Virus record (IMG/VR): IMGVR_UViG_3300047558_000101 | Span: 1-60,734 of that record | Source of the DNA: a virus | Reading direction: 5' to 3' (one strand) | Length of the DNA: 60,734 nucleotides | Shown here: positions 262 to 14,863 of the stretch, piece by piece | How the letters are laid out: every line of letters starts with the position of its first letter | Position numbering within the stretch: position 1 is the stretch's first letter | Translations under genes and position numbers: made by a program | The notes under the pieces: generated by a model | What the model was told of the DNA's origin: nothing | What the model saw: the letters and a program-made list of their open reading frames with translations, nothing else | The model's database searches: none

Positions 262-277
262 TAATTCTGTGGGATTA
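262..277 (-). repeat. TAATCCC palindrome, variant copy (inverted)
   Basis: On the minus strand this reads TAATCCCACAGAATTA, one base from the TAATCCCACGGAATTA variant at 2125. It lies upstream of the promoter of the 388 gene and is the only copy in inverted orientation. Confidence 0.6.
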
Positions 278-301
278 AATTACGGGCTTACCCGCCAGTT
301 G

Positions 302-310
302 TGTTATACT
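302..310 (+). promoter_or_regulatory. Extended -10 promoter for the 388 gene
   Basis: TGTTATACT is an extended -10 (TG, one base, TATACT). No good -35 is seen. Transcription would start near 317, leaving a leader of about 70 bases that ends in the repeated element at 360-383. Confidence 0.5.
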
Positions 311-359
311 TGTTTCCAAGTTGAAAGGGATTTCAACCCGCCGCCGGTGCTTACCGGTT

Positions 360-383
360 AACTTGTTCACTTATTGGAGATTT
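360..383 (+). promoter_or_regulatory. Repeated leader element, copy b
   Basis: ACTTGTTCACTTATTGGAG followed by ATTT, directly before the ATG at 388. It contains the Shine-Dalgarno GGAG. Related copies lie at 58, 1850, 5349, 9147, 10759 and 12376. Confidence 0.75.
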
Positions 384-387
384 CATC

Positions 388-1026
388 ATGGCAAAAGCAA
401 AAGCCCCCGCCGCAACTATTGTTGCAACCCGTATTGCCGCCGTTGGCACATTGATCAACGAAGCTGGCCAAGCCGCCAGCACAATGTTGGCAAAATGCAA
501 AGAAGCGGCCAAAGCCGCCAGCGCACAATTGGATGCGAAAAAACCCCTAGGGGAAAGAATCGCCGCCGTTGTGGCATTGTATGCGGATGATTTCAAAGCC
601 GCTGGTCACAATGTAAAGTCACTTTTCACGGATGCGTTAACTTTGCACGCCGCCGAAGCCGCCCCCGTTGTAGTATCGGTTATCGGTAAGGACGGCAAAA
701 AAGCGGACGAAGCCACTACAGCCGCAAAAGCCGTTGATTTATCTAAGCACAATATGCGGGACGCCGCAAAACAGGTACGGGAACAAAACGGCCTAGGCCG
801 CAAAGCCGGTGCTGGACGCAAACCCGCAAAACCCGCCGCCAGCTTACCCGCCGCCCCCGATATGAAAACCGAAGCGGACGCATTTTCGGCATGGCTGGAC
901 AATTTGCCAGAGTATTTGCTGGATGCGGTTTATCACCCCCGCATTGTTGCCCGATTGATCGAAAACGGGTACCGCTTGGAAAAAGCCGTGAAAGGCACCA
1001 AGATCACCGGCAAAGCCAGCGCCTAA
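388..1026 (+). CDS. Ala/Lys-rich protein, possible DNA-binding
   Basis: 212 residues, strongly biased to alanine and lysine, with no family I recognise. The N-terminal ~60 residues are helical and Ala-rich. Around residues 125-145 is a basic, flexible stretch (GLGRKAGAGRKPAKPAA) like an AT-hook or histone-type linker. The C-terminal ~65 residues (DAFSAWLDNLPEYLLDAVYH...) look like a small folded domain. The gene stands alone with its own promoter and a perfect terminator, between two groups of CTACTACTATCATGC repeats and beside the candidate origin. That position suits a DNA-binding or origin protein, but this is inference. GCC and CCC codons are noticeably dense compared with the genes that follow, possibly a sign of recent transfer. 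Confidence 0.75.
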   Translation: MAKAKAPAATIVATRIAAVGTLINEAGQAASTMLAKCKEAAKAASAQLDAKKPLGERIAAVVALYADDFKAAGHNVKSLFTDALTLHAAEAAPVVVSVIGKDGKKADEATTAAKAVDLSKHNMRDAAKQVREQNGLGRKAGAGRKPAKPAASLPAAPDMKTEADAFSAWLDNLPEYLLDAVYHPRIVARLIENGYRLEKAVKGTKITGKASA

Positions 1027-1038
1027 GCCGCCAGCCGA

Positions 1039-1063
1039 AGCCCCCCGCAAGGGGGGCTTTTTT
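1039..1063 (+). terminator. Rho-independent terminator
   Basis: Stem AGCCCCCC (1039-1046), loop GCAA, GGGGGGCT (1051-1058), then a run of T to 1063. It ends the 388 gene as a single-gene transcript. Confidence 0.95.
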
Positions 1064-1143
1064 GCGCCCAAAATTTGCCAATACCAGACTACTATCATGC
1101 TGCGCACACTACTATCATGCGGCGGCGTTGCGTGCGTGATGGC

Positions 1144-1159
1144 TAATCCCACGGGATTA
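1144..1159 (+). repeat. TAATCCC palindrome copy
   Basis: TAATCCCACGGGATTA in the gene-free region: 7-base arms around AC. Confidence 0.9.
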
Positions 1160-1240
1160 CTCGCCACGAGTGATGTATTACCGAGGTATCGCCGACGAAT
1201 TTCAGACCACCTTGCAAACCCAAGCCCACATTGAAAAATT

Positions 1241-1704
1241 GCTGCTAAAGCCCTAGGCATGCGGGTTTGCGACACTTTAGACGATGTAGGGCGCATAGAG
1301 CCTAGGGGCACTTTTTGCTGCTATAACTTTTAATTGCGAGTAAATCCGTGAGATAAAAAAGCCTTTAAAATCAACGACTTACGGGGCTTGCACCCCCCTT
1401 TTATTTATTTATTAGTTTAATAGCTTTAGCAGATAGATTTAAGACAGGAATGTTGGAACGATTTCGGCCAGTGCCGACCGCCAAGCCCAACCCGTTACCC
1501 CCCGCCATAAAAATCTCTCTCATGCCTAAAATTGCTGCTAATCTGCTAAAGTCAGTATCCATGCGGGTTCCAGCGATTTCTATCTGCTAAAGTTATCATA
1601 TTGACATCTTTATTGCTGCTATAAACTCAACATCCTACAAAATTTCCCGACTTTTTAATCATAATTCCACGAAATTTATAAACTTGTTTGGCATCTGCTA
1701 AAGT
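1241..1704. repeat. ATCTGCTAAAGT iterons
   Basis: Exact direct copies at 1541-1552, 1582-1593 and 1693-1704; an inverted copy (CTTTAGCAGAT) at 1424-1434; a partial copy GCTGCTAAAG at 1241-1250. Irregular spacing and mixed orientation suggest binding sites for a replication or control protein. Confidence 0.75.
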
Positions 1705-1732
1705 CCAACCAACATCCTACAAAATTTCCCGA
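1629..1732 (+). repeat. 22-base exact direct repeat
   Basis: Copies at 1629-1650 and 1711-1732, beginning AACATCCTACAAAATTTCCC and ending GA, 82 bases apart. Together they flank one ATCTGCTAAAGT iteron and an AT-rich segment. Confidence 0.9.
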
Positions 1733-1761
1733 TATTTTGTTTGTAAAAACACCCCATACGC

Positions 1762-1790
1762 TTGACACGCCACGAGTATTCCGCTATAAT
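1762..1790 (+). promoter_or_regulatory. Consensus sigma70 promoter
   Basis: TTGACA (1762-1767), exactly 17 bases, TATAAT (1785-1790). Both boxes are perfect, so this is probably the main early promoter for the operon starting at 1879. The predicted start is near 1797. Confidence 0.92.
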
Positions 1791-1801
1791 GTAGTCTGTT
1801 G

Positions 1802-1816
1802 GGTCGTAAAGCGACT
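1802..1816 (+). promoter_or_regulatory. 5' leader hairpin
   Basis: GGTCG (1802-1806), five-base loop, CGACT (1812-1816): a 5-bp hairpin within the first 20 bases of the predicted transcript. A 5'-end hairpin is also seen at 5284-5311. Confidence 0.5.
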
Positions 1817-1828
1817 CAGCACCTCCCC

Positions 1829-1844
1829 TAATCCCACGGGATTA
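1829..1844 (+). repeat. TAATCCC palindrome copy
   Basis: TAATCCCACGGGATTA in the 5' leader, about 32 bases after the predicted transcription start and just before the repeated leader element. Confidence 0.95.
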
Positions 1845-1849
1845 GATTC

Positions 1850-1873
1850 ACTTGTTCACTTACTTTATGGAGT
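1850..1873 (+). promoter_or_regulatory. Repeated leader element, copy c
   Basis: ACTTGTTCACTTACT, a four-base insertion (TTAT), then GGAGTT; provides the ribosome site for the ATG at 1879. Confidence 0.7.
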
Positions 1874-1878
1874 TCACC

Positions 1879-2127
1879 ATGGCAAAAACGCTCAAGCACA
1901 ACCCCGAGCACATCACCACCTATCGCACACGATCAGGTGCAACCCAGTACCGCCCATCCGTCGCTTATGGCATGTCTCTTGCTGCACTTGACCACGGATT
2001 CTGTCTTGCATGCGGCAACGATCAACCCGGCGTCGAGCCCGATGCACGCAAATACACATGCGACCATTGCGATGCTGACAAGGTTTACGGCATCGAAGAA
2101 TTGGCCCTGATGGGTCTCTTGTTTTAA
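1879..2127 (+). CDS. Small zinc-ribbon protein
   Basis: 82 residues. Residues ~42-66 hold two CxxC pairs (CLACG and CDHC) about 19 residues apart, a zinc ribbon. An upstream in-frame ATG at 1852 exists, but the GGAG at 1869-1872 fixes the start at 1879. First gene of the early operon after the consensus promoter. Its stop codon is the TAA of a TAATCCC palindrome. The role is unknown; small zinc-ribbon proteins of phages often bind nucleic acid or host proteins. Confidence 0.8.
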   Translation: MAKTLKHNPEHITTYRTRSGATQYRPSVAYGMSLAALDHGFCLACGNDQPGVEPDARKYTCDHCDADKVYGIEELALMGLLF

Positions 2128-2140
2128 TCCCACGGAATTA
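2125..2140 (+). repeat. TAATCCC palindrome copy at gene junction
   Basis: TAATCCCACGGAATTA. The first three bases are the stop codon of the zinc-ribbon gene, and the last bases run into AAGGA, the ribosome site of the next gene. Confidence 0.92.
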
Positions 2141-2151
2141 AGGAATTCGTT

Positions 2152-2796
2152 ATGTCAAATTCACACGCAACAGTCGGCAAGCAGTTCGGCAAACTTAAAG
2201 CATGCAATGGCTCACGGATGAGCTCAGCACTTGTCGTGACACCCGGCCCACACAACGACGATATGGCCATCCATGCCAACAGGGTGTTTTACCGAGTGCA
2301 AGACGGCATCAGTTATCGCACCCCGGTTGCACGCATCATGCGCAATGCCCACACCAAAGAAAACGAGCTATGGCTCACATCACGATATTACTCGTCAAGC
2401 ACTCAGCGTCACAAAGGTTATTTCCGTGATGGGTTCGTCGCCGCTGGCAACAGCCCAGACAACATATACATAACCCCCGTGGTTGACCAACTGCTACACC
2501 GCCACAACCCAGACATCGTGCGCAACTCCATCGGGTTCGTCAACTGCATGCTCAAAGAGGTGGACAAGCCACGACTGCGTGAGGCTACCCGCAGGGGCAC
2601 CATCGACAGCTGTATTCACCATGCCGAGCGTGTCATGCACAACTTCACCCACAAGATACCGCTCGACCTGATTGACGCCGACGCCTATTACGACCTGCAA
2701 GCCATGATGGGCTTTTTACACAATCTCAAGAACGAGCCAGACATTGACGCCGTGCGTGCCGCTGTCAAGGGTCACTTTGCTTTATTGGAGGGTTAA
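2152..2796 (+). CDS. Hypothetical early protein (214 aa)
   Basis: 214 residues, no recognised family. Mixed composition, soluble, no membrane segment. ATG is preceded by AAGGAATTCGTT right after the palindrome. It is followed two bases later by the next gene, so the two are co-translated. It ends in TTATTGGAGG, which doubles as the ribosome site for the next start. Confidence 0.78.
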   Translation: MSNSHATVGKQFGKLKACNGSRMSSALVVTPGPHNDDMAIHANRVFYRVQDGISYRTPVARIMRNAHTKENELWLTSRYYSSSTQRHKGYFRDGFVAAGNSPDNIYITPVVDQLLHRHNPDIVRNSIGFVNCMLKEVDKPRLREATRRGTIDSCIHHAERVMHNFTHKIPLDLIDADAYYDLQAMMGFLHNLKNEPDIDAVRAAVKGHFALLEG

Positions 2797-2798
2797 TC

Positions 2799-3182
2799 AT
2801 GGGATACCGGTCAGAAGTCAAATACATTCTGTTGTTCAGCACTGAAGAACAGATCAACACTTTCAGGGCACATGCCCAGCTCACACTCGGCGACACCGAT
2901 GGTGGCAGGGAGATACTCGACCAGATGGACATACAAGTGATGGACTACGACACCGAGTTCAAGCACCGGCTGTATGTGTCGTGGGACGATGTAAAGTGGT
3001 ACGAGTCGTACCCGTGGGTACAGGTGCAAGAGGGGCTCATGGACTATGTGGGCGAGATGGATGGGTGCGCCTATGCGTTTGCCCGTTCGGGTGAGGAGCA
3101 TGGCGATGTTGAGACAAAAGCCAGCGACAACATCCACTTCTATGACTATATGGATGTACGCACCAGCGTAGATTTTGTTTGA
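2799..3182 (+). CDS. Hypothetical acidic early protein (127 aa)
   Basis: 127 residues, acidic, rich in Tyr/Trp/Asp, with no recognised family. The start MGYRSEVKYILLFSTEEQI resembles a beta strand and helix of a small alpha-beta fold. Strong GGAGG ribosome site overlapping the previous gene end. Position suggests a host-takeover role, which is speculation. Confidence 0.78.
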   Translation: MGYRSEVKYILLFSTEEQINTFRAHAQLTLGDTDGGREILDQMDIQVMDYDTEFKHRLYVSWDDVKWYESYPWVQVQEGLMDYVGEMDGCAYAFARSGEEHGDVETKASDNIHFYDYMDVRTSVDFV

Positions 3183-3193
3183 GGGGAAATGCA

Positions 3194-3349
3194 ATGAATT
3201 ACAAACGACGAGCCAATGCCATCCACCCGTGGTCGATGTGGTACTGGACAACTGCGACCGAGGACTTACTCACGCTCGACAAGATGACGCTATACACATT
3301 CCGTCTGCTTGTTGACGAGGCTTTTAAAACACTTGACTGGAAGGACTAA
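3194..3349 (+). CDS. Hypothetical small protein (51 aa)
   Basis: 51 codons with GAGGGG upstream of the ATG. Aromatic-rich start (HPWSMWYWTT) and a C-terminal helix. The stop codon TAA at 3347 is the first triplet of a TAATCCC palindrome whose centre supplies the next gene's ATG. No known family. Confidence 0.65.
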   Translation: MNYKRRANAIHPWSMWYWTTATEDLLTLDKMTLYTFRLLVDEAFKTLDWKD

Positions 3350-3362
3350 TCCCATGGAATTA
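3347..3362 (+). repeat. TAATCCC palindrome as stop-start junction
   Basis: TAATCCCATGGAATTA: TAA (3347-3349) ends one gene and the central ATG (3354-3356) starts the next. Confidence 0.95.
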
Positions 3363-3560
3363 AACATCACATTCACCGAGCTCGCTCTGTTCTGCTGGGC
3401 GATCATCGCCACCGCTGGTGCGTTCAAATACTCAGACGAGGCGCGCACTGCCAAGCGCATGCTGTCGATCTTCACTGAGGACGAGAGCGTGCGCAACCAA
3501 GTGTTGCATGCACATGCCGAGTTCAAAGCCAAGGTCGAGGCGTGGAGGGCTAACTCGTGA
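3354..3560 (+). CDS. Small membrane protein (68 aa)
   Basis: 68 residues starting at the ATG inside the palindrome; GGAAGGA at 3339-3345 is the likely ribosome site. Residues ~5-22 (TFTELALFCWAIIATAGA) form one membrane segment, and the rest is a charged helix. Its stop overlaps the GTG of the next gene (GTGA). Confidence 0.7.
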   Translation: MELNITFTELALFCWAIIATAGAFKYSDEARTAKRMLSIFTEDESVRNQVLHAHAEFKAKVEAWRANS

Positions 3561-3757
3561 AGCGAAAGCCAAGCCAAGCGACGCTAGCGATAGCGTTCAA
3601 GCAAGCGCAAGATGTAATGAATACGCTCGAGCCCGTGTTCGAGCGTGGCGACATCGACGAAGAACAGTTCAAACAGGCCGTGTATTTGTACACACAAGCA
3701 GTGCTGTCACGAGCACGCATCACCTCACTTCAATCAGTCAGGAGTAAATTCCAATGA
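3557..3757 (+). CDS. Hypothetical small helical protein (66 aa)
   Basis: 66 residues with a GTG start that overlaps the previous stop, a junction style repeated at 13483, 14194 and 20513. Helical, basic N-terminus, no known family. Ends in ATGA overlap with the next gene. Confidence 0.7.
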   Translation: MKRKPSQATLAIAFKQAQDVMNTLEPVFERGDIDEEQFKQAVYLYTQAVLSRARITSLQSVRSKFQ

Positions 3758-4140
3758 ACGCCGCATTTTTTAAGACATCCATGCTATTGCGTGTAGCAAA
3801 GAAAGAGCTGTCGTGGGTTAATCCCATGGGATTATGCCAAGCCATTGGTGTGACGGCACACAAACTCGCTTGTTTAGGTGCAATACTCACAGCAAACGAA
3901 CTCGAAATACTTATCGAACACCGCATTCAACCCTTCGCCTATGCACACAGCTGGCTTGGGTGGAAGATGACATACCCACAGTACAAACTCAAAGACCTTG
4001 AGAAGTGGCCAAGCTGTGTGTGGGACAGAGCGTGCGACTGGGGCAACGATGTGCGCAACAACAACCCGATGGGGTTGCAAGCATGGCGACATGCGTGGCT
4101 AGATAAATTGATCGCTGAGTTTGAAGCGAAGGGAGATTGA
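3754..4140 (+). CDS. Hypothetical Trp-rich protein with two NPMGL peptides (128 aa)
   Basis: 128 residues, Trp-rich, no recognised family. It contains NPMGL twice: at ~residue 23, encoded by a perfect TAATCCCATGGGATTA palindrome (3819-3834), and at ~residue 104, encoded by CAACCCGATGGGGTTG (4062-4077), which looks like a decayed copy. The palindrome is thus tolerated, or used, in frame. Start ATG overlaps the previous stop. Confidence 0.75.
   Translation: MNAAFFKTSMLLRVAKKELSWVNPMGLCQAIGVTAHKLACLGAILTANELEILIEHRIQPFAYAHSWLGWKMTYPQYKLKDLEKWPSCVWDRACDWGNDVRNNNPMGLQAWRHAWLDKLIAEFEAKGD
3819..3834 (+). repeat. TAATCCC palindrome copy inside a gene
   Basis: Perfect 16-base palindrome TAATCCCATGGGATTA in frame inside the 3754 gene, encoding NPMGL. 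Confidence 0.95.
4062..4077 (+). repeat. Degenerate palindrome copy
   Basis: CAACCCGATGGGGTTG also encodes NPMGL. DNA similarity to the consensus is weak; it may be a decayed copy or chance. Confidence 0.4.
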
Positions 4141-4141
4141 G

Positions 4142-4351
4142 ATGAGTAAAGTTTTAGATTCGATCTGGTTCACACCGATGGGTGGTGCGTGCATCGGTGT
4201 CGTTGCAGTCGAGACCGAGTTCGATGGCCTTTGCTTTTATATCGGCCTTGGTGCTGGTGTTGACGAGGCACGGGATGCACAACATATTGCAGAGCGTGGC
4301 GCAAGATTCCCTTACGCCGCTGGTGTTGAATTATTGGGGGTAGAGATATGA
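4142..4351 (+). CDS. Hypothetical protein (69 aa)
   Basis: 69 residues. The ATG at 4142 follows GGGAGATTGAG and is preferred over an in-frame ATG at 4121 inside the previous gene. The sequence MSKVLDSIWFTPMGGACIGV and Gly-rich middle suggest a compact beta-rich fold. No known family. ATGA overlap with the next gene. Confidence 0.7.
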   Translation: MSKVLDSIWFTPMGGACIGVVAVETEFDGLCFYIGLGAGVDEARDAQHIAERGARFPYAAGVELLGVEI

Positions 4352-4953
4352 GCAAAGATATTTACCAAAGCGAGACCTACGAGCACAAGAATGGGCTCAA
4401 GTACCATGTGTGCTGGTACCAAGACTATGACTCACAATCGCCACTGGAGTGGTCGGACTGCCACGGCGTGACCGAGCGCATGGACTGGAACCCCACCAAT
4501 GCAGAGCAGCTCGAGCAACACATCGCTGACTGTGAGCCCGAGGTTGAGGAGGTTGCACGACTGACGCTCATGCGCCAGCTATGCCGACCATCTAACTATT
4601 ACGACACAGGGCTGTATTACGATGTGCTCACCTCGTTGCACAATGCAAAGACTGAGTGGGGTTGCAAGACCCATGAAGATTGTGTCGCCGCTGTAGAGCG
4701 TGACTTCGCTTACCTCAAGGGCTGGTACGACAACGACTGGTTCTGGTTGACCATCGGCGTGGCACCGATAGACGAGGACGGCGAGCCCATCGAAGATGAT
4801 CGTGAATATTGTGGCGGGTATGAGAGCACCATACTCAACAACGACGATGACAACAAAGCATGGCGCATCGAGGTGATCGAGAATCAGATCGCTGAGGTCG
4901 AGTGGACGAGGCGCAAGAGCATACACAAAAACCAGCTGGAGTTGGCGTTATGA
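4348..4953 (+). CDS. Hypothetical acidic protein (201 aa)
   Basis: 201 residues, very acidic in the middle (DEDGEPIEDDREY), rich in Trp and Tyr. Acidic DNA-mimic proteins of phages have a similar composition, but no specific motif supports that role. Joined to both neighbours by 4-base overlaps. Confidence 0.75.
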   Translation: MSKDIYQSETYEHKNGLKYHVCWYQDYDSQSPLEWSDCHGVTERMDWNPTNAEQLEQHIADCEPEVEEVARLTLMRQLCRPSNYYDTGLYYDVLTSLHNAKTEWGCKTHEDCVAAVERDFAYLKGWYDNDWFWLTIGVAPIDEDGEPIEDDREYCGGYESTILNNDDDNKAWRIEVIENQIAEVEWTRRKSIHKNQLELAL

Positions 4954-5258
4954 GTAGACGATCGAACCGACGAAGCAAGGCCAAGCGTGCCCAAGCCTTA
5001 CTATCATGCCGCGCCGAGCTCGTGCTGTTGTATGACGGCGAGCGGATGCCCGACCACTACCTCGAGTGCGGGCTCACTGCAACGCGTGAGCTGATCAGCA
5101 TGAAAAAGTATTTGATCTGGAACGGATTCACACGACCATCTGGTTCAGTACCACTGAGCGCATACCAAGCCCAACTTGACATTGCTGCGAAGCAGTTGCA
5201 AAACGACCTCGACAGGGAACTCATCCGATCGTTGATGACCCCTTCACTTGACAAGTAG
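4950..5258 (+). CDS. Hypothetical basic protein (102 aa)
   Basis: 102 residues with a highly basic start (MSRRSNRRSKAKRAQALL) that could bind nucleic acid, then a helical body. The ATG at 4950 overlaps the previous stop. A CTATCATGC left-end repeat falls inside (4998-5009). The gene end contains the -35 of the next promoter (5248). Confidence 0.72.
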   Translation: MSRRSNRRSKAKRAQALLSCRAELVLLYDGERMPDHYLECGLTATRELISMKKYLIWNGFTRPSGSVPLSAYQAQLDIAAKQLQNDLDRELIRSLMTPSLDK

Positions 5259-5276
5259 CGGGTATCCTGCTACAAT
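5248..5276 (+). promoter_or_regulatory. Near-consensus sigma70 promoter
   Basis: TTGACA (5248-5253), 17 bases, TACAAT (5271-5276). It drives the 5374 operon, with a predicted start near 5283. Confidence 0.9.
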
Positions 5277-5283
5277 ACTACCC

Positions 5284-5311
5284 ATGAGCTGAGGAAACCG
5301 CTTCGGCTCAT
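5284..5311 (+). promoter_or_regulatory. 5'-terminal leader hairpin
   Basis: ATGAGC (5284-5289), a T-G wobble, GAGG, loop AAACCG, CTTC, GCTCAT (5306-5311): about 11 base pairs starting at the predicted first base of the transcript. Such 5' hairpins commonly protect mRNA from decay. Confidence 0.6.
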
Positions 5312-5328
5312 ACAACTGACTCATTCAC

Positions 5329-5344
5329 TAATCCCACGGGATTA
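5329..5344 (+). repeat. TAATCCC palindrome copy
   Basis: TAATCCCACGGGATTA in the 5' leader, in the same order as at 1829: promoter, hairpin, palindrome, leader element, start. Confidence 0.95.
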
Positions 5345-5348
5345 ACAC

Positions 5349-5370
5349 ACTTGTTTACTTACTGGAGATT
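5349..5370 (+). promoter_or_regulatory. Repeated leader element, copy d
   Basis: ACTTGTTTACTTACTGGAG plus ATT before the ATG at 5374; contains the ribosome site. Confidence 0.8.
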
Positions 5371-5373
5371 TTT

Positions 5374-5805
5374 ATGGAAACACTTTCACCGACAGCCCCG
5401 CTGTTCGCTTCGTTCGTGCTGGACTTAGCGAAATACATCGTGCCTCATGTTGTTGCAGAGCTCAAAGCACAGACCAACGCCGAGGGCATGGGCATGATCG
5501 CACTTGACCCCAACAACTTGGCATTGCCCGTGTACACGCTGATGCAACACGACAGCAACATCCGTGACTTCCTCACGGGGATGATTGATGGCCATTACAA
5601 CGACAACATGCGCAGCATGAGCAAAAAGATCGACGAGCTCGACAACAAGGTTGATGACTTGGAGTCCAAGGTTGATGACATGGATAGCAAAGTCGATGAC
5701 TTTGATGACGAGCTCAACGCGGTGAAGAAAAACACCCCCAAAGTTGACGCTGACGACAGCGACTTCCAAGACGCAGTCATGTCCGTACTGCGCAAAAACA
5801 TTTAA
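5374..5805 (+). CDS. Coiled-coil protein (143 aa)
   Basis: 143 residues. N-terminal half is globular. Residues ~83-115 are a heptad coiled coil with near-exact seven-residue repeats (KVDDLES, KVDDMDS, KVDDFDD), so the protein probably forms dimers or trimers. First gene of the second early operon. No known family. Confidence 0.8.
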   Translation: METLSPTAPLFASFVLDLAKYIVPHVVAELKAQTNAEGMGMIALDPNNLALPVYTLMQHDSNIRDFLTGMIDGHYNDNMRSMSKKIDELDNKVDDLESKVDDMDSKVDDFDDELNAVKKNTPKVDADDSDFQDAVMSVLRKNI

Positions 5806-5815
5806 GGAGCAAACC

Positions 5816-6298
5816 ATGAAAGTTACTAAACTGCAAAAAGAAGCCATCGTTCGTGCCATCATGAATGATGTACCCAAGCCAAACAAGGCCACGCGCCATG
5901 CCAAAGTGCAAGCTGCGCTGGTCAAGGCCATGTCACCCGAGTGCCGCAAACTCTATGGCAAACGCCCTGACATCTTCACATCCGAGCACACAGGCGACAT
6001 CACCTATGACGGATGCAACTGGGCACTGCGCCATGTGATCATCGGCGACGCACCCAAAGAGAAACTGAAAGAAATCCTCGAGCCATACAAAGCCGAGGAC
6101 GAGAAATTCTACGAGGCCAAGCGCAACCTGACCAACGCCATCATGGCGTGCACCACGCTCAAAGCCTTGGAGACAACTTTCCCTGAGTTCAAAAAGTATT
6201 TCCCCACTGAGACACAACCCACCAAGAACTTGCCAGCACTTGCCAATGTGGTCGCTGACCTGAGCAAACTCGGCTGGCCGAAGGGAGAGAAAAAATGA
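5816..6298 (+). CDS. Hypothetical protein (160 aa)
   Basis: 160 residues. The ATG at 5816 follows AAGGAGCAAACC and is preferred over an in-frame ATG at 5744. Helical, basic, no membrane segment, no known family. Ends in an ATGA overlap. Confidence 0.75.
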   Translation: MKVTKLQKEAIVRAIMNDVPKPNKATRHAKVQAALVKAMSPECRKLYGKRPDIFTSEHTGDITYDGCNWALRHVIIGDAPKEKLKEILEPYKAEDEKFYEAKRNLTNAIMACTTLKALETTFPEFKKYFPTETQPTKNLPALANVVADLSKLGWPKGEKK

Positions 6299-6477
6299 GC
6301 GACATCATCAACATCGACAGCTACGAGCCCGACTACACCCACACCTGCGAGGTGTGTGGTGCCAACCATGTTGTCACCGGCGTGAAGGATGGCAAGGTGG
6401 TGTACCAAGGCGAGATGTGTGGCGTGTGTACATGGGGCGAGAGCGCCATGCGTGACCCGAAGGAGTGGAACAAATGA
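6295..6477 (+). CDS. Small zinc-binding protein (60 aa)
   Basis: 60 residues with CEVCG near residue 18 and CGVC near residue 43, a four-cysteine zinc ribbon. Strong coupling to both neighbours. Probable nucleic-acid or protein adaptor; function unknown. Confidence 0.75.
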   Translation: MSDIINIDSYEPDYTHTCEVCGANHVVTGVKDGKVVYQGEMCGVCTWGESAMRDPKEWNK

Positions 6478-6797
6478 CAGACAAAACCGACATGACCGAA
6501 GAAGAACTCAAGCGTGAGGTCGATGCGCAAGCCTTGGCCGATCGTGTGTGGGAGATTCTTGTGCAGCGTGCCAATTCACAACTCGATGGTGTGATCGCAC
6601 TGGAGCCAACGATTCTGTACCCGCACATCGACCTCTGGTTTGCCGAAAGGACAGGCCACCATCACATCAAGGTAGGTAACCACACAATGACTAACCTGAT
6701 CGCCGATTCACTGACAGGCAACTACCGCATGCAGTCGTGGTTCAAACGAGAGATGCGTAATGAGATGCTAAACATCGTTCAACGCATGAATTTTTAA
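6474..6797 (+). CDS. Hypothetical protein (107 aa)
   Basis: 107 residues, starting at the ATG that overlaps the previous stop. Acidic N-terminus, then a mixed helical domain. Ends at the TAA of the palindrome at 6795. Confidence 0.72.
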   Translation: MTDKTDMTEEELKREVDAQALADRVWEILVQRANSQLDGVIALEPTILYPHIDLWFAERTGHHHIKVGNHTMTNLIADSLTGNYRMQSWFKREMRNEMLNIVQRMNF

Positions 6798-6810
6798 TCC
6801 CATGGAATTA
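6795..6810 (+). repeat. TAATCCC palindrome copy at gene junction
   Basis: TAATCCCATGGAATTA: TAA is the stop of the 6474 gene. The 3' end merges into AAGGAG, the ribosome site of the 6822 gene. Confidence 0.95.
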
Positions 6811-6821
6811 AGGAGCAAACT

Positions 6822-7703
6822 ATGAGTATCAAAAACCACGCACTGCTGGTCTCACTTAGCGTGAGTAAGCCACAGATGACGAAGAAAGACGACAAAGCAA
6901 CTCGTGACGCCGAGAGTGCCAACAACGCACACGGCGCTGGTCAGTTCCGCAAGGACTTGTACCCCAAGTCGCTGGTGCAACCCATTCTCACAGTGGAGTC
7001 AAGTGCCCGTGCCTACATCGAGAGCGTGACCTATATGTGGACACGAGGCGAGTATCTCTTGCCGACTGCCAAGTTCATGGAGTTCACCGAGCGCATCGGC
7101 AAATACCAAGTCGAGTTCGATCAGTGCGTCACCGCATTCTTGAACAACTGGAGCAATGTGATGCAACAAGCACAGACATCGCAAGGTGAGCTGTTCGATG
7201 CCAACGCATACCCTGACTTGACCGACCTGAAGAATGACTTCCGCTTCCGTGTCAACTACCGCCCAGTGACTGATGCTGGTGACTTCCGTGTGCAGATGCA
7301 AGACGACGAGATGGACGCACTGCGTGCCGAGGTCGAGACTGCAACCCGTGAGTCCATGAACAACATGTTGCGTGCACCACTGGAGCGCCTCAAAGAAGTC
7401 GTACAGCGACTGCACGAGGTGACTGCCAAGGGCGACCGCGAGGTGTTGAACAAAAAGACCGGTGTGATTGACCTGCGCCCACCGATCTTCCGTGACTCAG
7501 TGGTGGACAACATCATGGAGGAAATTAACTTGCTGCATGCGTTCGCTGATGTCATGCCTGACAATGTGCTTGCCATTGCCAAGGAGATCGCTGACACCAC
7601 GCCGCACCCACAACAACTGCGTGACAACCCCGATGCACGCAAAGAGGTCAACACACAGACCGCCGCTTTACTCAACTCAATCAACGCTATGCTGGAGGAA
7701 TAA
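6822..7703 (+). CDS. MoxR/VWA-associated protein, DUF3150-like (293 aa)
   Basis: 293 residues, mostly helical and charged. In integrative elements and large plasmids, a DUF3150 protein of about this size often sits beside a MoxR ATPase and a VWA protein. Placement here, ahead of MoxR (9172) and VWA (10785), and the overall look agree with that family, but I identify it from context more than from motifs. Strong ribosome site AAGGAGCAAACT. It begins a block of four genes that runs up to the HNH insertion. Confidence 0.55.
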   Translation: MSIKNHALLVSLSVSKPQMTKKDDKATRDAESANNAHGAGQFRKDLYPKSLVQPILTVESSARAYIESVTYMWTRGEYLLPTAKFMEFTERIGKYQVEFDQCVTAFLNNWSNVMQQAQTSQGELFDANAYPDLTDLKNDFRFRVNYRPVTDAGDFRVQMQDDEMDALRAEVETATRESMNNMLRAPLERLKEVVQRLHEVTAKGDREVLNKKTGVIDLRPPIFRDSVVDNIMEEINLLHAFADVMPDNVLAIAKEIADTTPHPQQLRDNPDARKEVNTQTAALLNSINAMLEE

Positions 7704-7706
7704 ACC

Positions 7707-8045
7707 ATGTCAATCAAAGAGAAAACAATCGAGCGCCTTGTCAATCAACTTGCCAACTTGGGCTGCGAGTTCAAAGTCATCACAGAGGACGGCACCGAAT
7801 ACGGCGAGCTGACTGCTGTCAGCAAAAAGCACAAGACCGATGTGCTCAAGCATGTGGACTACAAAACTGTTCTGGCCAACATGAAAGCCGGTGATGTCGA
7901 GGTGCTGGTGTGTCCCGAAGGCATCCCGCTGGAGTCACTGCGCTCATCAATCAGCGGACATGGTGCTGCAAACTATGGTGCTGGCACATTCGCCACCATG
8001 ATCAACAAAGACAACAACACTGTTGAAGTGTTGCGTATGGAATAA
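7707..8045 (+). CDS. Hypothetical protein (112 aa)
   Basis: 112 residues, small alpha-beta protein with a Gly-rich loop (ISGHGAANYGAGT) near residues 82-94. No recognised family. Lies inside the putative MoxR/VWA module, three bases after the previous gene. Confidence 0.75.
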   Translation: MSIKEKTIERLVNQLANLGCEFKVITEDGTEYGELTAVSKKHKTDVLKHVDYKTVLANMKAGDVEVLVCPEGIPLESLRSSISGHGAANYGAGTFATMINKDNNTVEVLRME

Positions 8046-8047
8046 CC

Positions 8048-8290
8048 ATGGCCGACGACAACAAGTACGAACCCAAAGCGTTGCTCGAGTTCAGTGGCTC
8101 GTCAATTCTGTTGCCGGTGGATGAAGCCATCATGGCGTTCAAGATGCTGTGCAACGGCGAGCCCGTGCAATACGACTGGAGTAAAAAAGGCTACAAGCGA
8201 GAAAAGGCTCACTCGAATACTGGAATATCTCTCAAGATGTTCACAATCACAGACTATGCTTCGCTTGCACTCAACTCGGTCGATGAGTAA
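8048..8290 (+). CDS. Hypothetical protein (80 aa)
   Basis: 80 residues, no recognised family; starts two bases after the previous stop, so the genes are co-translated. Confidence 0.7.
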   Translation: MADDNKYEPKALLEFSGSSILLPVDEAIMAFKMLCNGEPVQYDWSKKGYKREKAHSNTGISLKMFTITDYASLALNSVDE

Positions 8291-8331
8291 AATCATCGTT
8301 CACTTATCCACTCAACTACTTAGGAAAACCG

Positions 8332-8544
8332 ATGGACTTCAACATCAAACTCGATCTCAAACTTGACCTCAATGGTGTCAACGCTTTGCTCAACTTGCTG
8401 AACACTGGTGCTCATGGCTTGGTGCGTCCCATCATCGACGACATCGTGTTGCAAGCACAAGAGCAAGAGAAAGCTGCACAACAACCCGTGCCACCTGCAC
8501 CCACTGATGTCGAGCCAAAAACATCTGCCGAAGCAGTCATCTAA
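8332..8544 (+). CDS. Hypothetical protein with Pro/Ala tail (70 aa)
   Basis: 70 residues. The first ~20 residues repeat DLKLDLN-type amphipathic strands, the middle is a helix, and the tail is a Pro/Ala/Gln linker. The leader TTCACTTATCCACTC before AGGAAAACC is loosely like the repeated leader. Stop codon lies in the palindrome at 8542. Confidence 0.68.
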   Translation: MDFNIKLDLKLDLNGVNALLNLLNTGAHGLVRPIIDDIVLQAQEQEKAAQQPVPPAPTDVEPKTSAEAVI

Positions 8545-8557
8545 TCCCACGGGATTA
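8542..8557 (+). repeat. TAATCCC palindrome copy at gene end
   Basis: TAATCCCACGGGATTA; TAA is the stop of the 8332 gene. Confidence 0.95.
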
Positions 8558-8563
8558 ACCCGT

Positions 8564-8584
8564 TGCCAGTGCGGTTCACTGGCA
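8564..8584 (+). promoter_or_regulatory. Leader hairpin
   Basis: TGCCAGTG (8564-8571), loop CGGTT, CACTGGCA (8577-8584): perfect 8-bp hairpin between the palindrome and the interrupted leader element. No U-tract. Confidence 0.6.
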
Positions 8585-8602
8585 CATCAACAACTTGTTT
8601 AC

Positions 8603-8631
8603 TTGACTGTACACGCATATGCGTGTATAAT
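8603..8631 (+). promoter_or_regulatory. Promoter of the HNH gene with internal 18-base palindrome
   Basis: TTGACT (8603-8608), 17 bases, TATAAT (8626-8631). The spacer holds the perfect palindrome TACACGCATATGCGTGTA (8610-8627), a likely operator. The predicted start falls at about 8638-8639, on the ATG itself. Confidence 0.85.
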
Positions 8632-8638
8632 AGACACC

Positions 8639-9118
8639 ATGACATCAGAACTTACACGAAACGAACTGCATCGCGTACTGCACTACAGCAAACGAACTGG
8701 TGTATTCACATGGTTAGTAGACAGTGGCGCGCGCAAAGTGGCTGGCCTAGAGGCTGGGACGCTAGGCGCTCGCAATGTGGTGTATATAAGCATCAAGCGT
8801 AAAAAGTACTTGGCTCATAGGCTAGCATGGTTTTATGTGCACGGCGTTTGGCCAGCAGCGCAGATAGACCATATAGACGGTGATCCAACAAACAACAGGT
8901 TCTCGAATTTGCGTGAGGCAACTAACGCACAGAACCAGCAGAACTTACGTAATCCCAAGGGATTAAACCCATACGTAGGAGTGCACTATGCCCGCGAACA
9001 TAAACGCTGGGCAGCTAGGATAAATGGTAAGCATATTGGGTACGCAGCGACCGCTGAAGATGCCCGAGTGGTATACCTGAAAGCAAAGTCGAAGCTGCAT
9101 ACGCATGCTCCGAAATAA
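8639..9118 (+). CDS. HNH homing endonuclease with AP2 domain
   Basis: 159 residues. N-terminal NUMOD-like part; HNH core around residues 62-95 (AHRLAWFYVHG, then DHIDGDPTNNRFSNLR); C-terminal AP2-like DNA-binding domain (NPYVGVHYAREHKRWAARI). The ATG lies 7 bases after its own -10 and has no ribosome site, so the mRNA is probably leaderless. A TAATCCC palindrome variant is in frame (8950-8965, NPKGL) between the two domains. It resembles the HNH proteins at 41624 and 43285. Such genes cut DNA lacking them and spread between phages. Confidence 0.9.
   Translation: MTSELTRNELHRVLHYSKRTGVFTWLVDSGARKVAGLEAGTLGARNVVYISIKRKKYLAHRLAWFYVHGVWPAAQIDHIDGDPTNNRFSNLREATNAQNQQNLRNPKGLNPYVGVHYAREHKRWAARINGKHIGYAATAEDARVVYLKAKSKLHTHAPK
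8950..8965 (+). repeat. TAATCCC palindrome variant inside the HNH gene
   Basis: TAATCCCAAGGGATTA, full 7-base arms around AA, in frame (NPKGL). Confidence 0.9.
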
Positions 9119-9122
9119 CCGG

Positions 9123-9142
9123 CTCCGCAGCGGCCCTGCGGT
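9123..9142. other. GC-rich hairpin after the HNH gene
   Basis: CCGCAG, five-base loop, CTGCGG between the HNH stop and the MoxR leader. No U-tract on the plus strand, so not a clear terminator. Confidence 0.4.
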
Positions 9143-9146
9143 AAAA

Positions 9147-9170
9147 ACTTGTTTACTTATTGGAGAAAAT
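9147..9170 (+). promoter_or_regulatory. Repeated leader element, copy e
   Basis: ACTTGTTTACTTATTGGAG plus AAAAT before the GTG start at 9172. Confidence 0.75.
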
Positions 9171-9171
9171 T

Positions 9172-10179
9172 GTGAGAATTGCACATGTGACCCCTATTCT
9201 CGTCAAGCGTTATTTGAACGACAACACTCGTCGTCGCACAACCTTCTTGCGTGGCCCATCGGGTATCGGCAAATCCGAAGTTGTGTTCCAAACATCACAA
9301 CTCTTGGCCGAGCATGTCCCAAACTGGAAAGGTGTCATCGACCTGCGCTTGGCACAGATGGAGCCCACCGACTTGCGTGGTATTCCTCATGTCGTCGAGG
9401 GTCGTACACACTGGGCACGCCCTGACTTCTTACCCGCTGATGGCTCAGGCATTCTGTTCTTGGATGAGATCACATCAGCTCCACCGTCAGTGCAAGCAGC
9501 TGCGTACCAGCTGTGCCTGACACCCGAGGACTTCGGTATCCCTGACTCATGGATGGTGATCGCCGCTGGCAACCGCAAGACCGATCGTGGTGTGACATTC
9601 AACCTTGCCGCACCATTGCAAAACCGCATGTGTGACATCGAGGTGAGCACAACCATCGACGACTTCACAGCACACGCTATCGGTCGTGGCATTCGCCCAG
9701 AGATTCTGTCTCTGTTGCAAGACCGCCCTGACCTGTTGCACAAGTTCGAGCCCACTGGTGACATCAAGCCTTTCCCATCACCACGCTCGTGGTTCGCCGC
9801 ATCGCATGTGGTTGACCTCGACTTGCCCACGCAAGATCGTGTCGAGTTGATCAAGGGTGACATCGGTGAAGAAGCAGCCATGATCTTCGAGACACACCTG
9901 CGCGTGTGGGAGTCCATGCCTCGCATCGAGGACATCTTGCAAGGCAAGGATGTGGCGTTGCCCAAAGAAATGAATGTGCGCTATTGTGTTGCGATGGGCT
10001 TGGCCACGCGCCTCGATGCTGACAACTTCGACAAGGCATGGAAGTTCTTGGAGAAGATGCCCGGCGAGATTCAGACCCTCACCATCAAGCTGGCACACAA
10101 GCGTGACAAGTCAATCACCAAGTCACCTGCGTTCAGCAAGTGGGCTGTGGCTAACCAAGCTGCTTTCAGCATGAAGTAA
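9172..10179 (+). CDS. MoxR-family AAA+ ATPase
   Basis: 335 residues with a GTG start chosen because TGGAGA (9161-9166) is correctly spaced; an in-frame TTG at 9160 lies inside that ribosome site. Walker A GPSGIGKSE (~28-36), Walker B ILFLDEI (~93-99), sensor-like VIAAGNR (~129-135). MoxR ATPases act as chaperones that remodel or activate partners, usually with a VWA protein. The VWA/peptidase at 10785 is the likely partner. The substrate is unknown. The original upstream junction with the 8332 gene was split by the HNH insertion. Confidence 0.9.
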   Translation: MRIAHVTPILVKRYLNDNTRRRTTFLRGPSGIGKSEVVFQTSQLLAEHVPNWKGVIDLRLAQMEPTDLRGIPHVVEGRTHWARPDFLPADGSGILFLDEITSAPPSVQAAAYQLCLTPEDFGIPDSWMVIAAGNRKTDRGVTFNLAAPLQNRMCDIEVSTTIDDFTAHAIGRGIRPEILSLLQDRPDLLHKFEPTGDIKPFPSPRSWFAASHVVDLDLPTQDRVELIKGDIGEEAAMIFETHLRVWESMPRIEDILQGKDVALPKEMNVRYCVAMGLATRLDADNFDKAWKFLEKMPGEIQTLTIKLAHKRDKSITKSPAFSKWAVANQAAFSMK

Positions 10180-10181
10180 TC

Positions 10182-10478
10182 ATGGCGATCAAACACCCCG
10201 TATCGGGCAGGCCATCGCTGGCATGGGAGTTGCAGAACATGGGTATCCATGTCGCCACCCGCATACAGCAAGCTAAGTATCGGCGTGGCCAAGCCTACAT
10301 CGTGCGTGAATCGTTTGCACAGATTCGCCCAGCCTACAACACTGCGGGTTTACTCGACAGCAAAGGCGGGTGGGTTGTGACACGCAACTCGTTCGATGAG
10401 ATCAGGGAGTTCAGCGACATCGAGTCAGCTAAGCTGTATGTCGAGGCGCTGTTCGCATTGGAAACAAACGCGGAGTAA
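10182..10478 (+). CDS. Hypothetical protein, paralogue of the next gene (98 aa)
   Basis: 98 residues, no known family. The C-terminal third (DIESAKLYVEALFAL) matches DIDSAKLHVEAIFAL in the 10483 gene, so the two are tandem paralogues. Both sit between MoxR and the VWA protein. The stop is the TAA of the palindrome at 10476. Confidence 0.78.
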   Translation: MAIKHPVSGRPSLAWELQNMGIHVATRIQQAKYRRGQAYIVRESFAQIRPAYNTAGLLDSKGGWVVTRNSFDEIREFSDIESAKLYVEALFALETNAE

Positions 10479-10491
10479 TCCCATGGGATTA
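10476..10491 (+). repeat. TAATCCC palindrome as stop-start junction
   Basis: TAATCCCATGGGATTA: TAA (10476-10478) stops one paralogue and ATG (10483-10485) starts the other. Confidence 0.96.
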
Positions 10492-10782
10492 AGACAACTT
10501 GAGTGGCATGAACATGCTGGCGGGTGGGTAGCGAGGATTGCAATTCCGTTCGACACGAATGCAGAACGCACAAAGTATCGACGCTACGCACATGTCAACA
10601 TATTTGATTGGGCTGTTAAACGCAAGGGGGCACTTGTCCCCGTGCAGTTTCAGTTCTACAAACAAGGGTACGATGTCACTTGGCACGAGGACATCGACTC
10701 TGCTAAACTACATGTCGAGGCGATCTTCGCCTTAGACAATGACGAGATTGACAATACTGATTCACTTACTCACTGGAGATAA
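10483..10782 (+). CDS. Hypothetical protein, paralogue of the previous gene (99 aa)
   Basis: 99 residues starting MGLRQLEWHEHAGGWVARI from the ATG at the centre of the palindrome. CGGAG at 10471-10475 gives the ribosome site. Similar in plan to the 10182 protein: N-terminal Trp/Gly strand region, then a DIDSAKLHVEAIFAL helix. The last codons overlap the leader element of the VWA gene. Confidence 0.78.
   Translation: MGLRQLEWHEHAGGWVARIAIPFDTNAERTKYRRYAHVNIFDWAVKRKGALVPVQFQFYKQGYDVTWHEDIDSAKLHVEAIFALDNDEIDNTDSLTHWR
10759..10780 (+). promoter_or_regulatory. Repeated leader element, copy f
   Basis: GATTCACTTACTCACTGGAG plus AT, a diverged copy that overlaps the end of the 10483 gene and supplies the ribosome site for 10785. 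Confidence 0.6.
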
Positions 10783-10784
10783 TC

Positions 10785-11921
10785 ATGGCATTGATGGACA
10801 GAATTGATCTTGCATATAGCAAGCTAGGACTGCGCGAAGCATTCATCGCAGCAGTGATGACACGCGTCAAGCGTGAGGTATCCGACAAGGTAACCACCGC
10901 TGGTACCAACGGCACATGGGTGCGGTTCAACGAAGCGTTCTGCGAACCACTGAGCGATGAGGAGTTGTTCGGTCTGGTGTTGCACGAGTCATGCCATGTG
11001 GTGCTGATGCACATGTGGCGTCGTGAGGGTCGTGACCCCAAGTTGTGGAACATCGCCAACGATGCGCTGATCAACGCGTACATCAAGAGCCGCAACTGGC
11101 AACTGCCCAAGGGCGGTGTGCACATCAACTGGGTGCGTGAGGAGATGTCATCCGAGGAGGTGTACAACCGACTCAAAGAGCAACAGCAAGCGCAACAGCA
11201 GTCCGGCGGCGGTGACGGCGATGGCGAAGGTGACTCTGACGGCGGTGGCTTTGACGGCCACGGCGACCTGTACGATGCACAAGACGAGGCGACCCGTGTT
11301 GACATGGAAGCATCCATCGTTGCAGCTGCCAAGATGGCCAAAGAGTGTGGTCAAGGTTCATCGCTCATCGACCGCGTGCTGGAGAAAGTCGGCGACGCCA
11401 AGGTGCGCTGGCAAGATGTGACACGCTCGATGATGACCGAGAGTGCCGCAGCAGATTACTCGTACATTCGCCCATCACGCCGCTTCATCGGCTCGGGTCT
11501 GTATATGCCATCGTTGCGCTCTGATGCACTGGGTGGTCTTGCCATTGGCTTTGATACATCGGGCTCCATGGGCCCGAGCGAGTGCAACCAGATTGCCGCT
11601 GAGTTGCAAGCCATCGTTGACGACCTCAACCCTGCGTTCGTCGAGGTGGTGTACTGCGACTGGGATGTGACACGCGTCGAACGCTTCGAGCGTGACGAGC
11701 CACTTGAGCTCAAACCCAAGGGCGGTGGCGGTACTCGGTTCCAACCTGTGTTCGAGCACTTTGCCAACACCGGCGAGCGGTACTGTGGCATGATATTTTT
11801 CACTGACATGGAAGGTAACCTTGACGAGTGTGTTGAGCCCACCATGCCAATGATCTGGGCTGACATCGGTTACAGCCATCCACGCGAACCATTCGGCACC
11901 CGTGTCGAGGTTCCACTATGA
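10785..11921 (+). CDS. VWA protein with N-terminal metallopeptidase-like domain
   Basis: 378 residues. HESCH (~67-71) is an HExxH zincin motif in the N-terminal domain. A Gln/Gly/Asp-rich acidic linker spans ~125-165. The C-terminal VWA-like domain has the MIDAS motif DTSGSM (~256-261), GGGGTRF (~315) and FFTDMEG (~340). This matches the DUF2201 plan (putative peptidase plus VWA). It is the expected partner of the MoxR ATPase. Whether it cleaves proteins or only binds metal is unknown. Confidence 0.88.
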   Translation: MALMDRIDLAYSKLGLREAFIAAVMTRVKREVSDKVTTAGTNGTWVRFNEAFCEPLSDEELFGLVLHESCHVVLMHMWRREGRDPKLWNIANDALINAYIKSRNWQLPKGGVHINWVREEMSSEEVYNRLKEQQQAQQQSGGGDGDGEGDSDGGGFDGHGDLYDAQDEATRVDMEASIVAAAKMAKECGQGSSLIDRVLEKVGDAKVRWQDVTRSMMTESAAADYSYIRPSRRFIGSGLYMPSLRSDALGGLAIGFDTSGSMGPSECNQIAAELQAIVDDLNPAFVEVVYCDWDVTRVERFERDEPLELKPKGGGGTRFQPVFEHFANTGERYCGMIFFTDMEGNLDECVEPTMPMIWADIGYSHPREPFGTRVEVPL

Positions 11922-11930
11922 AAGAAAACT

Positions 11931-12212
11931 ATGCTTTACAAACTCGAAAAAGAATTGTTGAACCGCCTCGTGCGAATTGAATCCAAACTCGTGCGAGGGT
12001 TCGAGGAGCTGGGCGTAAACATCGACAAGGACAACGAGTGGTTAACCCTCGACGAAGAGTCCGCCGTGGTGTATGTGTCTACGCTCGGTCGTTCCATGAC
12101 TGTGTTGCTCAGCGACATGGCGCGTGCAGGTGCGACCAAAGAGGGCAAGCAGTATGACATCGTGCATCGTGGCGACATCATTGGCAACATCACATTTAGG
12201 AAAATCACATGA
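11931..12212 (+). CDS. Hypothetical protein (93 aa)
   Basis: 93 residues; helical N-terminus, then a beta-rich half (YDIVHRGDIIGNITFRKIT). The ribosome site is weak (AAAGAAAACT). A 20-codon frame starting at 11918 overlaps the start and may serve as a translational lead-in. No known family. Confidence 0.68.
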   Translation: MLYKLEKELLNRLVRIESKLVRGFEELGVNIDKDNEWLTLDEESAVVYVSTLGRSMTVLLSDMARAGATKEGKQYDIVHRGDIIGNITFRKIT

Positions 12213-12403
12213 CAAACTATCATGCACTCCCCGACCTCAACCCGACAACGCGGTGCTTTCCGCGCTCGTTGCTGCAAGCGTGGCCCAACGATTACCCTGA
12301 GTGGTTCGAGCCGCACGAGCGTAAATCCCATGGGATTAGCGTGTGGTTAGGTCTAGGCTGTTGGGTTGTTGGTGCACTTGTTTACTGGAGGTATGTGTTA
12401 TGA
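12209..12403 (+). CDS. Small membrane-anchored protein (64 aa)
   Basis: 64 residues with a C-terminal membrane segment (~45-62, VWLGLGCWVVGALVYWRYVL). A TAATCCC palindrome is read here in another frame (KSHGIS). Overlaps both neighbours by ATGA. Confidence 0.65.
   Translation: MTNYHALPDLNPTTRCFPRSLLQAWPNDYPEWFEPHERKSHGISVWLGLGCWVVGALVYWRYVL
12323..12338 (+). repeat. TAATCCC palindrome copy inside a gene
   Basis: AAATCCCATGGGATTA, one mismatch at the first base; read as KSHGIS. Confidence 0.85.
12376..12392 (+). promoter_or_regulatory. Repeated leader element, copy g (short)
   Basis: ACTTGTTTACTGGAGGT, a four-base deletion relative to other copies; ribosome site for the 12400 gene. Confidence 0.6.
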
Positions 12404-12522
12404 ATTGCAAGCATAGGTACGAGCCGACAAACTTCGGCATCAAGTATCGCACCCCAAACAGTTACTGGTGGAGTTGCGTGCGTTGTGGCAACACGATCTT
12501 TTCTGAACTCAAGGAGAGGTGA
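12400..12522 (+). CDS. Tiny zinc-ribbon protein (40 aa)
   Basis: 40 residues: MNCKHRYEPTNF, then WWSCVRCGNTIF. Cys/His pairs near residues 3-5 and CVRC at 26-29 form a small zinc ribbon. Well-placed GGAGG. The stop overlaps the next ATG (TGATG). Confidence 0.65.
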   Translation: MNCKHRYEPTNFGIKYRTPNSYWWSCVRCGNTIFSELKER

Positions 12523-12911
12523 TGACAAGCTATTCATGGAATGCCAGCAACACTTCGCATGGTGTCGTTGCACAAGAGATTGAAAGCGTTATTCCATACT
12601 CAACAATAAATATTGTTGACTCAAATCAGCAGCCAGCTAACATCGTATTCTTCAACAACAACGACAACACTGAATTACTTCGCATAACTGCTGACGGCGT
12701 GACTGCAAACCCGAATGTGCCGGTCGATGAGATTGCACAGCGAGTGCTGGTAGCGCTGAATAGCGGCATCAAACAGATGGTGCGTAAGAAGTGGAAACCG
12801 CTGACGCCAGAAGAATTGCGCCAGTGCTACTCGCACGCGCTTGAGTACGACAAAGATTTGGCTGATGTGATTCATCAGGCATTGGTAGATAAACATCACT
12901 GGGAGGATTGA
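12522..12911 (+). CDS. Hypothetical protein with a tail-fibre-like motif (129 aa)
   Basis: 129 residues. Residues ~13-24 (HGVVAQEIESVIPY) resemble the GVVAQELEQIFPG motif of the peptidase S74 chaperone domain in this phage's own tail fibre (46636 gene). The rest, NTELLRITADGVTANPNVPV onward, is a compact helical unit common in phage early proteins. The fibre-like piece may be a recombination scrap or a reused fold. Confidence 0.72.
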   Translation: MTSYSWNASNTSHGVVAQEIESVIPYSTINIVDSNQQPANIVFFNNNDNTELLRITADGVTANPNVPVDEIAQRVLVALNSGIKQMVRKKWKPLTPEELRQCYSHALEYDKDLADVIHQALVDKHHWED

Positions 12912-12912
12912 C

Positions 12913-13107
12913 ATGAGAGAAATTAAATTGATCGGCAGCACCATGCTGCCATTCGTGGTGACATTCTTCGCCATGTACTTGGTGGGTTCGTTCGTGTCTG
13001 TGAGCTGGGACATTGCAGCATGGACATGGGAGCTTCGTGTGCTGATGGCGACATTCGGCATTACCTTTGGCTTTGCATTGTGGATGCGCTTGGAGGTGGG
13101 ACGATGA
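12913..13107 (+). CDS. Two-span membrane protein (64 aa)
   Basis: 64 residues with membrane segments at ~8-26 and ~40-57. Begins one base after the previous gene. Function unknown; size would suit a small inner-membrane effector. Confidence 0.72.
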   Translation: MREIKLIGSTMLPFVVTFFAMYLVGSFVSVSWDIAAWTWELRVLMATFGITFGFALWMRLEVGR

Positions 13108-14830: not shown

Positions 14831-14863
14831 TGAAATGATTGAAGTACTGAACGGGAGCAAAGA

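Follow-up and report, generated by a model that had tools for sequence, protein, structure and literature searches.

Iterons, IHF and an AT-rich unwinding element are combined in the plasmid origins of pSC101 and R6K gamma, where Rep acts together with DnaA (PMC5043065). In the replication modules of other mobile elements, SaPI Rep recognises an iteron origin via its C-terminal domain, with SaPIbov1 Rep and Cch being related DUF927 helicases (PMC7581432), and fusions of AEP primases to DUF927 have been described in mobile elements as well (PMC5862659). A gene-free segment at positions 1064–1761 of a 60,734-base virus record from IMG/VR (the window, i.e., the whole stretch of DNA analysed here) shares iterons, an IHF consensus site and an AT-rich element with the two plasmid origins, but it lacks a DnaA box and its presumed initiator is itself a helicase. 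Like lambda ori, it would represent an iteron origin of a phage with an AT-rich element and a replicon-specific initiator; the lambda iterons, however, are part of a replication gene and are recognised by O, whereas those of the window are intergenic and a helicase is the presumed binding partner. SaPIbov1 Rep and the SaPI origin resemble the system proposed for the window in employing a DUF927-type self-loading MCM-like helicase and many short iterons, which the C-terminal domain reads in SaPI and would read in the window. In contrast to the SaPI case, the helicase of the window is fused to an AEP primase-polymerase, IHF sites are found in its segment, the candidate origin is not placed directly downstream of the initiator gene but 23 kb apart, and a complete phage, presumably of Gram-negative hosts, takes the place of the island. 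For the helicase and the C-terminal part of the candidate initiator, Cch from SCCmec (5dgk) is the best match in both profile and structure comparison, although the matched chain does not include a PrimPol part and Cch belongs to a chromosomal cassette. An origin for the clade or its cultured relatives was not found described in the literature searched. The initial annotation had proposed the complete segment as candidate replication origin; as deduced from sequence comparison, its core at about 1230–1760 quite probably has this function in the phage.

From its proteins, the window can be grouped with podovirus-like phages. Judged from DNA polymerase and capsid, its nearest cultured relatives are RHph_TM3_14A and similar Rhizobium phages, followed by the Pseudomonas phages Rollin and KPP25 when considering the polymerase. 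Structural genes and terminase are oriented leftward (29–60.6 kb) and early genes rightward (0.4–28 kb). As relatives show the gene order terminase small subunit, 212-aa gene and iteron segment, the two ends of the window correspond to neighboring regions in these genomes. The 212-aa gene (388–1026, + strand), a conserved neighbor in about 39 relatives, is followed by a rho-independent terminator (1041–1063, +) which is likewise kept. On its right side, the segment ends at an early promoter with the 12/12 sigma-70 sequence TTGACA-17-TATAAT (1762–1790, +), found at the same position in relatives and confirming the initial placement just before an early promoter. The classification as gene-free is also corroborated, since none of the open frames in the segment is conserved at the protein level. 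Segment peptides match chiefly the nearest relative and do so in several frames, indicating DNA conservation and not coding. The vicinity to the terminase genes could also be indicative of a packaging (pac/cos) or partition (centromere) site, particularly as these genes diverge from the segment's side in the window as well as in relatives and the ends of several contigs fall within the segment or close to it. However, the terminase is set apart from the iterons by the 212-aa gene and a distance of about 1.7 kb, the corresponding repeat-rich or AT-rich gaps in KPP25 and RHph_TM3_14A are located close to where the early block begins and not directly beside the terminase, and contig ends can be produced by repeats. 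Hence, we consider a packaging or partition function very unlikely. The 212-aa protein itself (AF2 model with a pLDDT of 77) was evaluated as initiator and rejected, as it has neither a PHROG or Pfam match nor a significant PDB fold match. Elsewhere in the window, a 1947-aa protein of the structural block (29059–34902, –) does not show any Pfam domain above its cut-off, and a search for relatives of the protein encoded at 2152–2796 did not find any.

The repeats of the segment are real and non-random. In line with the initial annotation, ATCTGCTAAAGT is present in three exact copies (1541–1552, 1582–1593, and 1693–1704) and in an inverted one with one mismatch (1423–1434). The 9-mer core CTGCTAAAG occurs five times, in direct orientation at 1242–1250, 1543–1551, 1584–1592, and 1695–1703 (all +) and inverted at 1424–1432 (–), compared to at most three copies of any 8-mer in 200 shuffles. 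Moreover, seven of the 14 TGCTAWA words in the 60.7 kb are found inside the 700 bp of the segment, with not more than two in any other 700 bp. Degenerate iterons are TCTAAAGT (1274–1281, –), representing the CTAAA word of other groups, TTGCTGCTATA (1315–1325 and 1613–1623, both +), and TTGCTGCTA (1532–1540, +). Between the iterons, a box CATGCGGGTT is conserved in relatives (1258–1267, +), and a second copy (1560–1569, +) is found where most relatives possess a second IHF site. The direct repeat reported as 22 bases long exists but extends to 23 nt (CAACATCCTACAAAATTTCCCGA at 1628–1650 and 1710–1732, both +). The core from about 1230 to 1760 comprises the iterons, an IHF site, two CATGCGGGTT boxes, the two 23-nt repeats and AT-rich stretches. 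The description of the complete segment as the densest repeat region of the window holds for 12-mers but not for 9- to 11-mers, by which it ranks second to a coding repeat at 37.9–38.3 kb (densest region 37850–38850, in the structural block).

The initially delimited range is a composite, with the left 100 bp (a CTACTATCATG pair and a palindrome) being part of other repeat sets, and to this extent the proposal of the complete segment as origin had to be restricted. Copies of the CTACTATCATG box are located at 188, 243, 1089 (1089–1099, +, the first one after the 212-aa gene) and 1109 (1109–1119, +), with four additional ones showing one mismatch. On either side of the 212-aa gene, a pair of these boxes is flanked by terminator and palindrome, and the boxes are kept in almost all relatives. 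The 16-bp palindrome TAATCCCACGGGATTA at 1144–1159 is real, as had been claimed, but it is one of about 12 copies of the TAATCCCRYGGRATTA palindrome across 262–17,961 (0.9 expected), all in the early region. Positions of TAATCCCRYGGRATTA are 262, 1144, 1829 (1829–1844, within the early transcript's leader), 2125, 3347, 3819, 5329, 6795, 8542, 8950, 10476, 12323, and 17946, the latter falling within the DNA polymerase gene. Often, the palindrome separates a stop codon from the ribosome site behind it or is part of an early leader; at 2125, 6795, 8542, and 10476, its TAA serves as stop codon of the ORF ahead of it, in many cases with a ribosome site thereafter. Of 20 related records, 19 also contain the palindrome, several having a single copy, and the set probably represents an operator or stoperator-like network not specific to the segment. 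A similar network with a different word, 18 GTTACC-N-GGTAAC palindromes genome-wide, is present in RHph_TM3_14A (MN988472). A second early promoter of the window (5248–5344), TTGACA-17-TACAAT, matches the layout at 1762; its spacer contains the inverted repeat GTAGC...GCTAC, and the palindrome follows.

Considering these palindromes in the segment and its position directly upstream of the 12/12 promoter, the region might serve the control of early transcription instead of replication, with a phage regulator binding to the repeats and IHF looping the DNA for tuning the promoter at 1762. Regulatory regions frequently contain IHF sites, which fits this interpretation as well. However, the iterons are spread over both strands at distances of roughly 60–520 bp upstream of the promoter, and only the promoter at 1762 is equipped with iterons while those at 1762 and 5248 both have the palindrome. 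In addition, neither the melting minimum nor the tie to the C-terminus of the helicase (see below) would be explained by such regulation, which we therefore regard as unlikely.

For comparing the segment with other genomes, a search with the 212-aa gene identified 39 relatives, yielding about 26 segments, that of the window included, which are complete up to the promoter. In these, the layout of terminator, CTACTATCA pair, 16-bp palindrome, iterons, IHF site(s), AT-rich stretch and promoter is kept but not the sequence, with conservation in the alignment being limited to short boxes. The iteron word is group-specific: CTGCTAAAG is present in the window and two relatives (L114 and L095), CAATCTAAA in L007, L008, and L115, CAATCTAAA together with ACTAATT in L105, and ACTAATT in the groups of L096, L103, and L110. 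In some relatives, the excess of iterons over shuffles is not significant. The assumption of one iteron word for the whole family was rejected, as ATCTGCTAAAGT is absent from the six relatives analysed first, where other words are found. When the segment was used as query for nucleotide searches in collections of phages and plasmids, only short matches to the IHF block or chance matches resulted. A partly conserved, gene-free segment adjoining a strong promoter and a terminator might also encode a conserved non-coding RNA. This is extremely improbable, however, as a match to Rfam at gathering thresholds was not obtained, and the relatives differ in the orientation of the IHF block with only short boxes being conserved, as expected of protein-binding DNA. 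In some relatives, an extra gene is located between segment and early promoter (tested for L114 and L121; by eye in L095, L113, and L117). The N-terminus of its product resembles NikA-like/DUF6290 ribbon-helix-helix proteins, with L114 alone exceeding the Pfam cut-off.

The block most conserved among the segments, CTTTAAAATCAACGACTTAC, contains a perfect site for the IHF consensus WATCAANNNNTTR (PMC10380432), in the window represented by AATCAACGACTTA at 1369–1381 (+). Perfect sites of this kind are found only three times in the 60.7 kb of the window, one of them in the segment, and at least one is present in 25 of the 26 segments, L008 being the exception. The relatives usually have two IHF sites about 200 bp apart, inverted in some groups, whereas the window has one. 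A search for a phage-encoded IHF/HU did not find any. The combination of IHF sites and repeats in an AT-rich context also resembles attP, and an attP-like site with arm-type repeats for an integrase could be envisaged, the more so as the 19-mer TTTAAAATCAACGACTTAC adjoins tRNA-like sequence in several proteobacterial contigs. However, this 19-mer contains the IHF consensus, which suffices for explaining its recurrence and is expected of a strong IHF site. Recombinases of PF00589 and PF00239 are absent from the window and eight relatives, with controls being detected. Due to the lack of an integrase in nine genomes, the attP reading fails and is to be considered exceedingly unlikely; likewise, the IHF block was rejected as att core.

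Duplex stability was calculated from nearest-neighbour energies in 100-bp windows. In agreement with the AT-rich stretches initially described, the segment harbors the lowest-GC 300 bp of the genome as well as its least stable 100 bp at 1588–1687, a candidate DNA unwinding element, besides a second stretch of low stability at 1322–1421. In all seven near-complete genomes, the genome-wide minimum lies inside the segment. The same holds for the corresponding gene-free gaps of RHph_TM3_14A (minimum at 19,914) and KPP25 (26,478), hence for nine of nine phages. The gap of RHph_TM3_14A (19355–20125) additionally resembles the segment by holding both perfect IHF sites of its genome, in inverted order, and this phage encodes a DUF927 protein (annotated as 'integrase'); its iterons, however, are weak or different, and its palindromes have the GTTACC-N-GGTAAC word. 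In KPP25 (AB910393), the gap (26218–26895) is likewise gene-free, repeat-dense and close to where the early block begins, but it has eight copies of the iteron TCGTAACA, no perfect IHF site, and the phage encodes a large DUF5906 protein in place of DUF927. Thus, both origin word and presumed helicase differ in KPP25. If the origin reading is correct, it would also suggest an origin in these two cultured phages.

The cumulative GC-skew minimum, proposed as a check in the initial annotation, does not coincide with the segment: in the window, it is located at about 9.8 kb, and in most other genomes 2.3–8.5 kb right of the start of the 212-aa gene. As phage GC skew also follows transcription, this mismatch weighs lightly. 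A DnaA box (TTWTNCACA) is absent from the segment. Such boxes are not universal among iteron-type origins and are not known, for example, from lambda ori. Counting against an origin at 1.2–1.8 kb is furthermore the distance of 23 kb to the gene of the candidate initiator (24.8–27.7 kb). In favor of an origin are the position kept in about 26 relatives, the IHF sites, the melting minima, the group-specific iterons and an initiator-type helicase whose C-terminus apparently follows one iteron group. Most likely, the segment represents an origin of the iteron/IHF kind in a podovirus-like clade that has been little studied.

The likely initiator is a 988-aa protein (24784–27750, +) combining an AEP primase-polymerase with a DUF927 MCM-like helicase. 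It matches PF06048 (DUF927) at 4.8e-21 and, in profile comparison, SCCmec Cch (5dgk) at 2.7e-9 and SaPIbov1 Rep (8tch) at 3.5e-4, in line with Foldseek values of 2e-13 and 5e-12, respectively, for its model. Structural superposition gave a VIA Z of 16.0 with 5dgk (rmsd 5.4, 331 aligned), 12.8 with 8tch and, for the PrimPol part, 9.2 with the S-2L PrimPol. The full-length model is poor (mean pLDDT 53.7), albeit the 5dgk match is well above unrelated rows. Residues 891–988 (27454–27747, +) form a C-terminus predicted to be winged-helix-like, with a strand-helix-helix-strand-strand succession at residues 897–956 (pLDDT about 70–80, taken from the full-length model), and the alignment with 5dgk reaches residue 979.

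For relating this C-terminus to the iteron word, the initiators of the CTGCTAAAG group (the window, G001 and G002) were compared with those of 10 other genomes. Twenty diagnostic residues of the group are found in none of the 10 others, and half of them fall within the last 98 positions (P 5e-6); among 39 windows of the protein, 901–950 is the most group-specific. Over residues 891–988, G002 is 66–68% identical to the window's protein compared to 51–56% for the others, whereas in the rest of the initiator as well as in DNA polymerase, helicase and terminase it exceeds the others in similarity barely or not at all. The 239-aa exonuclease, however, is also closer in G002 (86% versus 66–76%). Apparently, the C-terminus tracks the CTGCTAAAG iteron group, a correlation with effectively one independent case (G002), and the 3' end of the gene may have been exchanged for another reason.

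From these findings, a route of initiation at the segment is inferred in which the C-terminal winged helix of the 988-aa protein would bind the five CTGCTAAAG iterons and, in addition, weaker sites with a CTA core while host IHF would bend the DNA at 1369–1381. The AT-rich duplex at 1588–1687, and perhaps also that at 1322–1421, would then melt, enabling self-loading of the MCM-like helicase domains. The PrimPol domain might lay primers for extension by the phage family A DNA polymerase (17527–19362, +), while the adjacent early promoter (1762) would read away rightward. Most likely, the segment is an origin of a known type, with an unusual initiator and evolving iterons. We give about even chances to the more specific proposal that a PrimPol-helicase of the SaPI Rep/Cch kind initiates at a distant IHF-bent iteron origin and that iteron word and winged helix were switched together between close phages, forming specificity groups. 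If the origin reading is correct, a precise start site and its initiator would be at hand for widespread uncultured phages, together with a phage counterpart to the SaPI/SCCmec replication modules and a case of origin words and the DNA-reading domain of an initiator changing together. Besides, the RHph_TM3_14A gene annotated as 'putative integrase' (L254:240-3323) can be assigned as a relative of the DUF927 helicase.
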